Notes under the pieces: model-generated
What the model was told of the DNA's origin: nothing
Databases searched by the model: none
What the model saw: only the letters and a program-made list of their open reading frames with translations
Assembly (NCBI RefSeq): GCF_944324525.1
Contig: NZ_CALUWS010000012.1
Span: 1 to 59,575 of the forward strand
DNA length: 59,575 nt
Source of the DNA: an uncultured Desulfovibrio sp.
GTDB lineage: Bacteria; Desulfobacterota; Desulfovibrionia; Desulfovibrionales; Desulfovibrionaceae
Reading direction: 5' to 3'
Part shown: positions 79-52,680 of the stretch, one piece after another
Layout of the letters: each line of letters starts with the position of its first letter
Position numbering within the stretch: the stretch's first letter is position 1
Translations under genes and position numbers: made by a program

Positions 79-225
79 TAGAGCATTTTGCCTTTGAAAA
101 GGCAAAATGCGAGGCGGCGGCACAGCGCCGCCCGGCCCAAAGTGAGCGGAAAAACCGCGCTTTTTCCGCGAAACGCCAGGCCGTATGGTTTGAAACGCCA
201 AGCGTTTCAAACCAAAAATGCTCTA
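79..225 (+). repeat. Family A four-hairpin repeat, copy 1
   Basis: This is the best-preserved copy. It starts TAGAGCATTTT and ends AAAATGCTCTA, so a 9-bp inverted end (GAGCATTTT) is flanked by TA on both sides. Inside are four hairpins in a row: GCATTTTGCC...GGCAAAATGC, GGCGGC...GCCGCC, GCGGAAAAA...TTTTTCCGC and GGTTTGAAACG...CGTTTCAAACC. Related copies lie at 7092-7239, 12946-13082, 13601-13736, 16511-16656 and 52507-52648. Confidence 0.85.
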
Positions 226-7091: not shown

Positions 7092-7239
7092 TAGAGCAGG
7101 CCCAGTTTGAAACACTTGGCGTTTCAAACCATACGGCCTGGCGTTTCGCGGAAAAAGCGCGGTTTTTCCGCTCACTTTCGGCCGGGCGGCGCTGTGCCGC
7201 CGCCTCGCATTTTGCCTTTTTCAAAGGCACAATGCTCTA
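7092..7239 (-). repeat. Family A four-hairpin repeat, copy 2
   Basis: Reverse-orientation copy between the WcbI-like gene and ileS, with TAGAGC at the left and GCTCTA at the right. All four hairpins are retained; the left inverted end has decayed to GAGCAGGCC. It fills most of the 408-bp gap 6995-7402. The remainder (7240-7402) shows a possible weak promoter, TTGTCG then CATAAC, but no gene. Confidence 0.85.
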
Positions 7240-12830: not shown

Positions 12831-12945
12831 CATGCAAAAAACATTTCTCCACAAAATACAGAACGTTTTATGAGTAAACTCCAACGGGCACGGCCTCCGG
12901 CCGCCCGTTGGGTCGCCGCTGGCGCGGGAGGGCCTTGGGCATTTC

Positions 12946-13082
12946 CTGTTTGAAACGCTTGGCGTTTCAAACCATACGACTTAGCGTTTCGCGGAAAAAA
13001 CGCGGTTTTTCCGCTCACTTTTGGCCGGACGGCGCTGTGCCGCCGCCTCGCGTTTTATCTTTTTCAAAGATAAAACGCCCTA
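12946..13082 (-). repeat. Family A four-hairpin repeat, copy 3
   Basis: Contains hairpins 4 to 1 read left to right. The right end reads AAAACGCCCTA and the left end GGGCATTT, so the terminal GAGC/GCTC pair has become GGGC/GCCC, a matched change. The right-end CTA is the TAG stop codon of the DUF457 gene on the minus strand. Confidence 0.85.
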
Positions 13083-13580: not shown

Positions 13581-13600
13581 GCGTTTTCCTTTATAATATT

Positions 13601-13736
13601 CTTAGTTTGAAACGTTTTGCGTTCCAAGCCATACGGCCTGTCGTTTCGCGGAAATGCGCGGCTTTCCGCTTGCTTTTGGCCCAATGGAACTGTGCGCCGC
13701 CTCGCGTTTTGCCTTTTTCAAAGGCAAAACGCTCTA
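13601..13736 (-). repeat. Family A four-hairpin repeat, copy 4
   Basis: Degraded copy upstream of the DUF457 gene, lacking the left inverted end and with mismatches in hairpins 2 and 4. Its right end GCTCTA shares its TA with the left end of the family B repeat that follows, forming GCTCTAGAGC at 13731-13740. Confidence 0.8.
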
Positions 13737-13885
13737 GAGCGGATTCGCATTGGCATTGTATCCAATTTCCCTGCTGACGCTGCCCTCACACTGCGGAAAA
13801 AGCGTGATTTTTCCGTGTGTTCGGTTGCGGGTAGTCGCTCTCGCGACTACCAGAGCAATCCACATTTTCAATGTGGATTGCTCTA
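13735..13885 (+). repeat. Family B repeat, copy 1
   Basis: Starts TAGAGCGGATTCGC and ends GATTGCTCTA. It contains a GCGGAAAAA...TTTTTCCG arm pair, a GTAGTCGC...GCGACTAC hairpin and a terminal 15-bp stem, AGAGCAATCCACATT paired with AATGTGGATTGCTCT. A second copy lies at 24320-24472. Both are flanked by TA. Confidence 0.85.
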
Positions 13886-16491: not shown

Positions 16492-16518
16492 GACATATAT
16501 GTCAATACTCAGAGTATT
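16492..16518. promoter_or_regulatory. Two adjacent perfect palindromes upstream of nrdJ
   Basis: GACATATATGTC (16492-16503) is followed directly by AATACTCAGAGTATT (16504-16518). The ATATAT core of the first resembles an NrdR box, which is plausible before a ribonucleotide reductase gene but unproven. The second overlaps the left edge of the family A repeat. Confidence 0.4.
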
Positions 16519-16656
16519 TTCAGTTTGCAACGCTTTGCGTGCCAAACCATCCGGCCTGATGTTTCGCGGAAAAACGCGGTTTTTCCGCCTGGTTTCGGCC
16601 GGGCGGCGCTGTGCCGCCGCCTCGCATTTTGCCGTTGTCAAAGGCAAAATGCTCTA
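16511..16656 (-). repeat. Family A four-hairpin repeat, copy 5
   Basis: The right end AAAATGCTCTA carries the TAG stop codon of the TRIC-family gene (16654-16656). The left inverted end is GAGTATTTT. The whole gap 16253-16653 is accounted for by this repeat plus the nrdJ leader elements. Confidence 0.85.
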
Positions 16657-18865: not shown

Positions 18866-19007
18866 AGATTCCCCCCGAAATGGCGGCAAAGCCGCCCAAC
18901 GCCGCACCACAAGGCGCAGCGGTCAGCGTGTAACCACGGCGGGGGCAGGTAGAGACGCGCCCGAACGGCGCAGGACAGGCACACCCGGAGGTGTCCGGGG
19001 CAAATGC

Positions 19008-19172
19008 CCCAGGGTGCCGTGTCATGACTTCGGTGCAGAACCTGGTTTCCCAGGTGGGCGCCGAGGCGCTCCCTTCAGGCTTCCCTTGCGGGCATGCTCA
19101 CCGGTAGCGGGTACGGCTCCCTTTTGTATGCTTGTAAGGTCAGCACCGAGACATAAATCACGCACACCCCAG
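19008..19172 (-). ncRNA. ssrS: 6S RNA
   Basis: On the minus strand the central segment GGTGAGCATGC, then GAAGCCTGAA, is the 6S RNA hallmark around the open bubble that binds sigma70 RNA polymerase. A long irregular closing stem forms between GGGGTGTGCGTG...CTCGGTGC (5' side) and GCACCG...CATGACACGGCACCC (3' side), and an apical hairpin ACCTGG-GAAA-CCAGGT lies within. It directly follows zapA, the same synteny as in enterobacteria, and lies before rny. The ends are approximate. Confidence 0.85.
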
Positions 19173-19176
19173 GGAT

Positions 19177-19458
19177 TTAAAGAGGTTGCGACTCTTCTAT
19201 TTGCGTAAGCAGGTTCTGGATGCGATCCTGCACATCCGCCTGCTTTTTCTGCGCTTGCAGTAAATCGTCCGCCAGCCCAAGGGCCAAGTACGTCAGCAGA
19301 ATATCTTTGGTCTGCGCGCCGTGGGACCTCAGTTTCAAATCGGCGAACCGTTCTTCCACCAGAGCGATGGTTGCCCGGAACTTTTCCAGATCCGCGCCGG
19401 GACGAAAAAAGATATCGGTCCCGAGGACGGTCAGCCTGCTCGCGTTTTCCGAGCTCAT
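19177..19458 (-). CDS. zapA: Cell division protein ZapA
   Basis: 93 aa. ZapA binds and bundles FtsZ filaments. The N-terminal beta segment SRLTVLGTDIFFRPGAD and the long C-terminal coiled coil LADDLLQAQKKQADVQDRI fit the family. It begins 6 nt after the zapB-like gene and is followed by the 6S RNA gene, the classical zapA-ssrS arrangement. Confidence 0.9.
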   Translation of the reverse strand: MSSENASRLTVLGTDIFFRPGADLEKFRATIALVEERFADLKLRSHGAQTKDILLTYLALGLADDLLQAQKKQADVQDRIQNLLTQIEESQPL

Positions 19459-24319: not shown

Positions 24320-24472
24320 TAGAGCGGATTCGCAGGGAAATCGTGTCCACTCTCCCTGCTGACGCTGCCCTCACACGACGGAAAAAGCGTGGTTTTTCCG
24401 TGTGTTCGGTTGCGGGCAGTCGCTCGCGCGACTACCGGAGCAATCCACATTTTTCAATGGGGAATTGCTCTA
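24320..24472 (+). repeat. Family B repeat, copy 2
   Basis: Starts TAGAGCGGATTCGC and ends AATTGCTCTA, matching 13735-13885 along its length, including the GACGCTGCCCTCACAC block and the GTCGC...GCGAC hairpin. The terminal stem is less perfect than in copy 1. The rest of the gap (24473-24656) has a GGGGCGTTTGCC...GGCAGACGCCCC hairpin (24574-24609), possibly the metQ terminator, and nothing else recognisable. Confidence 0.85.
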
Positions 24473-27306: not shown

Positions 27307-27370
27307 AGCATATTTTCCGCCGGGCGCAAAGAGGGCACGTCCCCGTTCCCCGGCGGCTCCCCGAGACGGC

Positions 27371-27405
27371 AAACGGGAGGGCCGCCCCGCAGGGCCTCCC
27401 TCCCG
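27371..27405 (-). terminator. Hairpin downstream of secA
   Basis: On the minus strand CGGGAGGGAGGCC pairs with GGCCCTCCCG with a small bulge, followed by TTT. It probably ends secA transcription ahead of metN. Confidence 0.5.
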
Positions 27406-27407
27406 CC

Positions 27408-27447
27408 ATATGGTGTGAAACGCAACGCGTTTCACACGGAAAATGCT

Positions 27448-27450
<3 letters not shown>
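27408..27450 (-). repeat. Family A partial copy at the secA stop codon
   Basis: Only hairpin 4 (GTGTGAAACG...CGTTTCACAC, both arms changed in step) and the end GGAAAATGCTCTA remain. The end CTA is the TAG stop codon of secA. Confidence 0.75.
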
Positions 27451-33560: not shown

Positions 33561-33664
33561 TTGACTTTATCTATTGAAATTGTTTTTAAAATTTGTGTTA
33601 GCACGTCCTAGGCCCCGCCCCAACGATCCCGACCGCCTGCCACCCGGCAGGCGGTTTTCTTTTG
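33561..33664 (+). ncRNA. Candidate small RNA: promoter, short transcript and terminator
   Basis: TTGACT (33561-33566) is followed 18 nt later by TTTAAA (33585-33590), and a strong intrinsic terminator CCGCCTGCC-ACCC-GGCAGGCGG-TTTTCTTTT lies at 33639-33664. The predicted transcript is about 70 nt with no open frame. No family is recognised. The terminator may simply serve the upstream gene. Confidence 0.35.
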
Positions 33665-33710
33665 GACCGGGCGGCGCTATGCCGCCGTCCCGGGTGTTGC
33701 TTTTTTTCAT
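33663..33710 (-). repeat. Family A fragment (hairpin 2 region)
   Basis: GACCGGGCGGCGCTATGCCGCCG followed by a T-rich stretch aligns with the hairpin 2 and hairpin 1 junction of the full repeats, with many changes. Confidence 0.55.
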
Positions 33711-33763
33711 GCCCCCCTCATTCGCCGTCCGTGTCTTTTCCCAGTTTTTCACTCGGAAAAGTC

Positions 33764-38085: not shown

Positions 38086-38520
38086 TTTTTTGTTTTTGCC
38101 CCGCTGGATGGCGGCTTCAGCCCGGTATCCGGGCGGGGTCGCCTGCGCGGCGGGCGGCAGGGGATAAGGGGCCTGGGCGGCCCCTTACCCCCTACGACCC
38201 CCAACCCCGCCTTGGGACAGCCAACCCTGACGAACATCCGGCAAGCGACAGGCTTCTCCTGCTCTCCTCCCTGCCGCGCGCCATAAGGCATCGCCCTCCC
38301 GCTGTCCCGCGCTCACACGGGACGAGCGTCCGGGCGGCGTCGGAGCTTCCGCGCCTCCGGCGCGGCGATCTCCTCCGCGCCATGACGCGCTTACGACGGC
38401 AAACAGGATGATGGAATACGCATGCGCTGGAGGACGTCGCTCCGATAAGGAGTTGGGACAAAAAGCTGCCCCCTTCCGAGTCGTCGCAAAGACTTACAGC
38501 CAGCGAGAACAGTAAGAGAA
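38086..38520 (+). repeat. Family D long direct repeat, copy 1
   Basis: Pairs with 38571-39005 at a fixed offset of 485 bp, with roughly nine in ten bases identical by eye; the stretch at about 38313-38418 is the same in both. It begins with a T-rich run and GCCCCGCTGGATGGCGG, then a hairpin AAGGGGCC...GGCCCCTT with a C-tract tail like family C, then about 330 bp of unknown sequence. Both copies keep an open 89-codon minus-strand frame, but no protein family is recognised. Confidence 0.85.
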
Positions 38521-38570: not shown

Positions 38571-39005
38571 TTTTTTGTTTTTGCCCCGCTGGATGGCGGC
38601 TTCTGCCCGGTGTCCGGGCGGGGTCGCCTCCCGGCGGGGGGCAGGGGATAAGGGGCCTGGGCGGCCCCTTACCCCCTACGACCCCCAACCCCGCCTTGGG
38701 ACAGCCAGCCCTGACGAACATCCGACAGGCGACAGCCTTCCCCTGCTCTCCTCTCTGCCGCGCGCCATAAGGCGTCGCCCTCCCGCTGTCCCGCGCTCAC
38801 GCGGGACGAGCGTCCGGGCGGCGTCGGAGCTTCCGCGCCTCCGGCGCGGCGATCTCCTCCGCGCCATGACGCGCTTACGACGGCAAACAGGATGATGGAA
38901 TACGCATGCTGTGGAGGACATCGCTCCGGTAAGGGGTTGAGACAAAAAGCAGCCCTCTTCCGAGTCGCCACAAAGGCTGACGGACAGCGAAAACAGTCAG
39001 GAAAA
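38571..39005 (+). repeat. Family D long direct repeat, copy 2
   Basis: Second copy of the preceding block. In the TCCCG...CGGGA hairpin this copy has one extra base pair. It runs into a partial family A element at 39000. The region 37979-39293 (1315 bp) therefore holds no supported gene, only duplicated and hairpin sequence. Confidence 0.85.
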
Positions 39006-39076
39006 ACCGCGTTTTTCCGCGAAACGCCGGGCCGTGTGGTTTGAAACGCAACGCGTTTCAAACGGAAAATGTCCTA
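39000..39076 (+). repeat. Family A partial copy (hairpins 3 and 4)
   Basis: GGAAAAACCGCGTTTTTCC, then GTTTGAAACGC and GCGTTTCAAAC, then the degraded end GGAAAATGTCCTA. Hairpins 1 and 2 are missing. Confidence 0.75.
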
Positions 39077-46380: not shown

Positions 46381-46426
46381 CTGTTAACACTATTCGCTGT
46401 TTGTTTGGGGGGAAGGGAAACCCCTC
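46381..46426 (+). repeat. Family C partial copy
   Basis: CTGTTAACACTATTCGCTG, then GGGGGGAAGGGAAACCCC, as at 33384, cut off by the tandem repeat at 46427. Confidence 0.65.
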
Positions 46427-46590
46427 GCTCTGCTGTCGATGCCTGTAAGGCCTTACGGCCTAACAGGCACGGCCTTCGGCCGCCTTTCGGTCGCGCTCTG
46501 CTGTCGATGCCTGTAAGGCCTTACGGCCTAACAGGCACGGCCTTCGGCCGCCTTTCGGTCGCGCTCTGCTGTCGATGCCCGTAAGGCTCC
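46427..46590 (+). repeat. 68-bp tandem repeat, about 2.4 units
   Basis: Units begin GCTCTGCTGTCGATGCC at 46427, 46495 and 46563, with an exact 68-bp period. The first two are identical over their length. Each contains GCCTGTAAGGCC...GGCCTAACAGGC and GGCC-TTC-GGCC hairpins. The third unit is truncated by a family A fragment. Confidence 0.9.
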
Positions 46591-46670
46591 GCGGAAAAAC
46601 CGCGTTTTTTTTCGCGAAACGCCAAGCCGTATGGCTTGGGACGCAACGCGTCTCAAACGGAAAATGCTTT
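46589..46670 (+). repeat. Family A partial copy (hairpins 3 and 4)
   Basis: CCGCGGAAAAACCGCG, then the degraded hairpin 4 (GGGACGC...GCGTCTC), then GGAAAATGC. With the tandem repeat it fills most of the gap 46363-46833; the remaining 160 bp before ilvE hold no recognisable gene. Confidence 0.7.
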
Positions 46671-46833
46671 CTTGAAGGCGGCCCCGCGGCCGCGCCCTCT
46701 TTTTGTAGCTTCCGGCGGCGGCTCTGGCAAGCGGCCGCCAGCATGGCCCTTGCCTTATGCCGCGCTTTTCAGTAATTTTTTCCCTCGCGCGGCCAGACCG
46801 CGACAACCCGTACCGGCACAGAAGGATACTCAC

Positions 46834-52437: not shown

Positions 52438-52506
52438 TTGGGAAAAGGGCACGCGGCAAGCCGCGCCCAAAGCCGACGCCGAAAAACCATCGCAAGGAAA
52501 CAGTCG

Positions 52507-52648
52507 CGCATTTTCCGTTTGGAACGCTTCCCGTTGCGAACCATACGGCTGGCGTTTCGCGGAAAGATCGCGGTCTTCCCGTTTGGTTTGGACGAGGCGG
52601 CGCAATGTCGCCGCCTTGCGTTTTACTTTTTCACAGGCAAAATACTCA
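52507..52648 (-). repeat. Family A four-hairpin repeat, copy 6 (degraded)
   Basis: Retains all four hairpin positions, but with many changes and decayed ends (GCATTTT at left, AAAATACTC at right). It lies between two convergent genes. At 52648-52680 an extra hairpin AACGGCG...CGCCGTT follows, a probable two-way terminator. This accounts for the gap 52385-52719. Confidence 0.7.
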
Positions 52649-52680
52649 AACGGCGGCATCCTTCACGGATGTCGCCGTTT
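52648..52680. terminator. Terminator hairpin between the chemoreceptor and cytochrome genes
   Basis: AACGGCGGCATCC pairs with GGATGTCGCCGTT around TTCAC, and TTTCTTC follows on the plus side. It can serve both convergent genes. Confidence 0.55.

Follow-up and report, generated by a model that had tools for sequence, protein, structure and literature searches.

A modular hairpin element at TA sites in Desulfovibrio, probably a MITE moved by an IS630-type transposase

The closest known counterparts of the element described here are RUP and BOX of Streptococcus pneumoniae. RUP is 107 bp long and present in 108 copies; it targets TA, and its ends are like those of IS630-Spn1, its proposed mobiliser (PMC2229807, PMC3049150). 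BOX (boxA-boxB(n)-boxC) is modular, with a variable number of internal modules, inverted ends, a target duplication and a predicted RNA fold (PMC3049150). Correia/NEMIS and ERIC also have TA at their ends, and their transcripts form stable stem-loops (PMC2229807). According to that review, IS similarity in bacterial repeats other than RUP had been neither looked for nor found. No earlier description in Desulfovibrio came up in searches of open-licence papers, and the main text of a 2024 MITE review contains no word beginning with 'Desulfo' (PMC10969869).

The DNA analysed, called the window below, is a whole stretch of 59,575 nt, contig C12 of the genome G000 of an uncultured Desulfovibrio sp. 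(2.9 Mb, 93 contigs). Its family A element is 148 bp long and has no long open frame; most copies aligned have the terminal inverted repeats TAGAGC/GCTCTA. The parts follow in the order TA, inverted end GAGC, hairpins H1 and H2, a stem P round hairpin H3, hairpin H4, inverted end GCTC and TA. In the copy at 79-225 (all parts on the forward strand), the left TA of the presumed target duplication is at 79-80, the duplication being shown at the copy 7092-7239. Sequence and structure place the left inverted end plus H1 at 81-110 (hairpin 83-110), H2 at 113-132 and H4 at 187-213, and structure places the 5' strand (CGGCC) and 3' strand (GGCCG) of the long-range stem P at 133-137 and 179-183, and H3, whose loop CCGCG is largely kept in other lineages, at 146-169. 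The right inverted end and right TA, taken from the sequence, occupy 214-225. The 5' arm of H1 is the left inverted end itself, and the right end adjoins H4. The original prediction had described four perfect hairpins between inverted ends flanked by TA. This plan held, with the five pairs of stem P enclosing H3 as an addition; the hairpins are less than perfect, 86-96% of cells being paired, by helix and with the end stem included, in 66 G000 copies. Intact copies do end in TAGAGC...GCTCTA, and by eye the ends bound the unit in most of 30 aligned copies. In six of these (L007, L008, L010, L011, L020, and L021) one of the ends is GAGAGC, the same replacement of T by G each time. No Rfam family was found at the element, either in the window at the gathering score or in eight related loci at E 0.1. 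A role as intrinsic terminator was rejected, as no T-run was seen by eye after H1-H4 on either strand.

Copies were sought with R1, a covariance model of 148 positions made from 29 copies, three of which lie in the window and match by construction. All six window copies predicted to be full or nearly full were recovered (E 5e-31 to 1e-49): 79-225 on the forward strand (E 1.1e-49, model positions 1-148 of 148; a training copy) and, on the reverse strand, 7092-7239, 12935-13082, 13592-13736, 16510-16656, and 52504-52649, the last with degenerate ends. The predicted starts at 12946 and 13601 fell ∼10 bases inside those given by R1. Four predicted fragments are partial copies at 28-68 bits, the outer parts of their matches being forced. 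They comprise H4 and the right end at 27408-27450 (forward; match 27329-27450, 44 bits), part of H2 at 33661-33710 (reverse; match 33587-33721, 28 bits), and H3, H4, and the right end at both 39000-39076 (forward; match 38929-39076, 68 bits) and 46589-46671 (forward; match 46512-46671, 60 bits). A second subfamily of similar plan and with TAGAGC ends occurs on the reverse strand at 13735-13885 (33 bits by R1), which has an H3-like hairpin with loop ACCACGC or similar, and at 24320-24472 (39 bits by R1). The two are 90% alike over 136 nt, and the former adjoins the family A copy at 13592-13736, with one TA common to both. The whole-genome search that had been proposed gave at least 151 R1 matches at E ≤0.001 in G000, with 150 of 3233 candidates scored, and TAGAGCRTTTT occurs there 101 times, against 2 for a reversed-pattern control. 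Head-to-tail pairs exist, with one common TA between the units of L069 and a common CA between those of L067 and L068, and H1 alone was found by eye between two ends at G000:C23:2996-3032.

The starts of several G000 contigs, C12, C51, C2, and C75 (L001, L004, L010, and L028), lie 71-78 bp ahead of an element. Both L001 and L004 have AATGAGTCCTGACCC beside TAGAGC, which would suit the insertion of a different IS at the CTAG made by the element's end. Elsewhere, the window contains 6S RNA at 19002-19178 on the reverse strand (Rfam RF00013, 105 bits), a 68-bp perfect tandem duplication at 46426-46561, and 300-nt direct repeats, 96% identical, at 38148-38447 and 38632-38931.

Among the sites compared, one place gave a clean empty site. 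The copy at 7092-7239 sits between a promoter-like TTGACT-N17-GAAAAT (by eye) and ileS (Pfam), and the element is absent there from four of four sister loci (L097, L098, L099, and L100). L097 has CCTTATAAAACAG in place of CCTTATA-GAGC...GCTC-TAAAACAG in the window; L098, L099, and L100 depart from this sequence at one to a few positions and keep the single TA. The single TA at all four empty loci means that the TA duplication at 7092-7239 is real; it had been suspected from the ends of the element, and empty sites in relatives had been named as a check. The closest named loci come from three uncultured Desulfovibrio and Candidatus Desulfovibrio gallistercoris, with ileS proteins 94-96% identical. 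L100 has the copy at 12935-13082 as well, in the orthologous position, which dates this insertion to before the split of the two. For the site at 13592, three alignments (L097, L098, and L100) end at the element edge, after which other repeats follow, and L099 aligns through; at 16510 the element is unaligned in the three loci compared, with flanks too diverged to set a boundary. In locus L326 of genome G002, one copy is nested in the H1 of a second copy and flanked by TA at either end; H1 is intact in L082 and L089. This nested insertion is a second case of TA duplication.

Some of the target TAs are stop codons. A GC-position heuristic was applied to the 44 ends of 22 of the 30 G000 loci: at 8 ends, a coding-like frame stops at the TAG (or TAA) of the element's end, the other two frames account for 1 and 3, and 32 ends have no clear frame. 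When an intact element enters a TAA or TAG stop, the frame is again closed by TAG, so such an insertion should be mild.

A scan for an IS630-type element with matching ends, also proposed at the outset, was positive in the sister genomes G064 and G022 and negative in G000. DDE_3 matches occur in 23 of 61 genomes of the genus (nine in G002); the same profile search gave no match in G000. TAGAGC ends delimit a unit of 995 bp around the match at G022:C286 and one of 993 bp around that at G064:C4, and the matches in G016, G002, and G041 also have TAGAGC-like ends. The 993-bp G064 element has an open transposase frame (311 aa from the chosen ATG) that scores 193 bits with NF033545 (IS630; cut-off 100) and 116 bits with DDE_3, and weakly matches Sleeping Beauty in PDB (E 8e-8); in the G022 copy the frame is split into two overlapping pieces. 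On these profile scores, the candidate transposase is assigned to the DDE-type IS630 family. The consensus left end of family A equals the G064 IS end at 18 of 18 bases and the G022 IS end at 17 of 18. The consensus right end agrees with the IS ends of G022 and G064 at 13-14 of 18 bases, and better with one G002 IS end (15/18). One G064 copy is equal to the G064 IS end at 23 of 23 bases, and window copy 79-225 differs from it at 3 of 18. The best G002 copy end reaches 15 of 18 against the IS ends of its own genome, and one G002 end matches a G022 IS end better (16). In G064, a family A copy adjoins the transposon itself, with a TA common to both. A search with the IS DNA found no cognate transposon in G000 (40 of 49 candidates scored) and no match in G008, G007, or G017. 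These last three genomes have R1 matches (5, 7, and 75, respectively, with at most 150 candidates scored per genome) in the absence of a DDE_3 match, so transposon and element are not always together. G020, G022, and G064 also contain many copies of another short repeat (∼117 bp; e.g., G064:C4:12771-12887 and G022:C219:11204-11321), which has 73-81% similarity to the final 116 bp of the IS630 element; two of these copies adjoin a family A copy on a common TA. Carriage by phage or plasmid was rejected for lack of a match, the viral contigs having been searched with one exact 27-base pattern.

The family extends across the genus. At E 0.001, R1 gave at least 150 matches each in G022 and G020 and, among the at most 150 candidates scored per genome, 115 in G002, 75 in G017 (best E 7e-15), 7 in G007, 5 in G008, and 2 in G004. 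At E 1e-5, it gave at least 150 in G064 and, with the same limit on candidates scored, 55 in G041, 16 in G062, 6 in G010, 1 in G006, and none in 7 of 12 genomes. The plan persists between lineages despite great difference in sequence. Among the arms of H3 are GCGGAAAAA, GCGTCCAGA, and GCCTGAAAA, which pair with their complements and enclose a loop near CCGCG (variants CCACG and TCGCA, and ATTTA in G004), and stem P is CGGCC/GGCCG or CGCGC/GCGCG, with CGCGCC/GGCAGCG in another register in G002. By eye, G002 and G017 have elements of ∼141-152 bp with five hairpins. Among 38 G002 copies, found by pattern in 52 loci (two with H1 unclassified, and seven H3 arms picked by eye), all four combinations of variants are found for two of the six module pairs, H1 with H3 and H2 with H3, and for none of the remaining pairs. 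Such combinations point to exchange between copies or to repeated change, and hairpins appear to have been swapped like modules between copies in G002. An extra hairpin is present in 4 of the 40 G002 loci listed, once in each of L358-L360 and twice in L352. A copy of the G002 type, by eye a few bases from L089, was also seen in Desulfovibrio sp. ZJ369 (L155:8960-9110).

The original prediction held that changes in hairpin arms tend to be matched on both sides, implying selection on RNA or DNA structure, and substitutions that preserve pairing are indeed present between lineages. Of 29 copies screened by a script requiring H3 arm pairing, 21 passed, and 16 of these formed the H3 alignment (A4); L018, L225, L207, L219, and L155 were omitted, each being identical to another row or one base different. 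The screen inflates the percentage paired and is not the source of the both-side changes, and the eight rows that failed it pair in 67 of 72 cells. Five of nine H3 pairs change on both sides in the 16 core segments, a number not reached in any of 500 shuffles, and two of five pairs do so in stem P (12 segments; alignment A5, with four G002, G041, and G019 rows out, P being in another register). For H3 and P together, the both-side-change cells and the covariation score were reached by 0 of 500 shuffles, the number of both-side pairs by 18, and the pair types by 150. The matched arm changes are also real in H1: three of its pairs have them in 8, 5, and 8 of 29 copies, and three more pairs (one in H1) have them in 2, 1, and 1. 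Most are shared among copies and private double changes are few. The inference of selection thus calls for qualification: covariation is present between lineages, and the private changes of 66 G000 copies show no constraint on stems, with 80 substitutions in 6835 paired positions against 32 in 2884 unpaired ones (p 0.84).

This contrast bears on the reading that family A is a structured RNA or regulatory element of benefit to the host, which would have spread on account of its usefulness at the sites it occupies. The stable folds, the both-side changes between lineages, and the position at gene ends would agree with that, as would the finding that all changes pooled, shared ones included, are rarer in stems (C to T 73/3321 vs. 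48/964 outside; G to A 81/3312 vs. 73/1525). RNA selection on one strand should clearly favour G-U over A-C pairs. The resident copies tell a different story, with 127 copies with single-sided transitions to G-U at well-kept pairs and 107 to A-C, amounting to 37 and 34 site-events, of which 19 and 18 are private. These statistics, like those on private changes and nearest-neighbour divergence, draw on the 139 copies with a length of 140-152 bases, out of 159 distinct copies (166 matches); of 100 stretches searched, L298, L301, L319, and L323 gave no match at 1e-12. Within each genome taken singly, G-U is slightly above A-C (84 vs. 70, 17 vs. 8, and 14 vs. 10), and the G022 and G020 copies had been ranked with a model in which G-U is favoured. 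As the lean to G-U is only slight, selection on the RNA strand in resident copies was rejected. With private substitutions equal in and out of stems, sister loci that do without the element at the one clean site, and no Rfam family, we consider a benefit to the host in place very improbable. Since private changes show no constraint on the stems, any selection would act on the copies that spread; it seems to be the lineages that spread, and not every resident copy, in which structure is maintained.

A different account keeps the MITE and does away with selection: template switching could repair imperfect palindromes and so yield matched arm changes. Each hairpin is a near-perfect palindrome, a substrate for such repair, the H3a and H3b variants differ in both arms together, and private matched double changes number 15 against a null mean of 2.6. 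However, 11 of the 15 come from two rows, L305 (6) and window 38929-39076 (5), which are divergent or badly bounded, and we set the excess aside; both-side variation is seen in stem P too, where 41 columns separate the strands. We regard template switching as a possible but doubtful source of the matched changes. As to the mover, a RAYT (IS200-like) enzyme or the IS427-type transposases of the genome might be invoked, since G000 has DUF4096 genes at C19 and C45. Where the IS427-type ends were read, in the C19 copy of G000 itself (TAGGAGCTGTTTCTAAAAA) and the repeated copy of G006, they differ from those of the element, so the IS427 partner was rejected. A search of C45 and most other DUF4096 loci for TAGAGC-like sequence gave two finds, neither belonging to a DUF4096 element. 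RAYT enzymes are not known to make a TA duplication. Movement by either enzyme seems very improbable.

Copies differ in age between genomes. Median nearest-neighbour divergence is 8.1% in G000 (66 copies), 4.8% in G020 (22), and 2.0% in G022 (43), the G020 and G022 copies being the top of the covariance-model ranking, which flatters their stems and lowers their divergence. With copies this diverged, the family looks idle in G000 and its copies old, probably because no cognate transposon is left. In G002, 18 of 37 copies are identical to another copy elsewhere, in groups of 7, 5, 4, and 2 (the count took in 37 of 40 loci; G002 has 75 matches in another scan). Identity at different sites makes recent movement likely, and we conclude that the family was likely active recently in G002.

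The single-TA empty site, the bounded ends, and the IS630 transposon with matching ends support the MITE hypothesis of the original prediction. We think it very probable, from sequence comparison, that family A is a non-autonomous transposon moved to TA by an IS630-type DDE transposase made elsewhere. Such a transposase, supplied in trans, would act on the TAGAGC-type inverted ends and move the element into TA dinucleotides with duplication of the TA, presumably by cut-and-paste, the mode established for the IS630/Tc1 group. The interior is a row of hairpin modules. The matched changes in H3 and P between lineages, where the H3 loop and the linkers stay largely the same, together with the new module combinations of G002, suggest that source elements keep the folded design, and resident copies seem to decay freely. 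The likeliest reason for this design may be that the folded form helps the element to spread or makes its insertion tolerable, as single-stranded DNA or cruciform or as RNA in host transcripts. A bolder idea, which we hold to be rather unlikely, is that the hairpins are part of the transposition machinery, with a folded single-stranded or cruciform state recognised by the IS630 transposase or a host partner and the H3 loop as recognition site. If true, family A would be a hairpin-cassette transposon, its modules free to recombine provided that every one of them folds.

Within a single genus, the family may serve as a natural experiment on the reason for folding in bacterial MITEs. Several lineages have retained the plan of four or five hairpins, their arms differing and their loop mostly conserved, and the private changes of resident copies show no constraint. 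This contrast could separate selection for spread from function in place, a matter unsettled for RUP, BOX, ERIC, and Correia. G002, with its identical copies, and G064, with its open transposase frame, are candidates for a direct study of transposition.

Set beside the known repeats, with likeness judged from published descriptions, family A resembles RUP as a MITE-like element with a TA target and IS630 ends; RUP is termed simple, not modular, and its host belongs to another phylum. Correia/NEMIS and ERIC are alike in their TA ends, again by description. With BOX, compared in architecture only, family A has modularity, inverted ends, and target duplication in common, whereas BOX ends resemble ISSpn2 (PMC3049150) and those of family A resemble IS630. 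In contrast to BOX, the modules of family A are whole hairpins with differing arms, and an extra hairpin is rare. A MITE with IS630 ends is of a known kind, represented by RUP, and BOX is the precedent for modularity. What is new is the modular make-up of this element, with swappable hairpins of which the arms change and the loop is largely kept.
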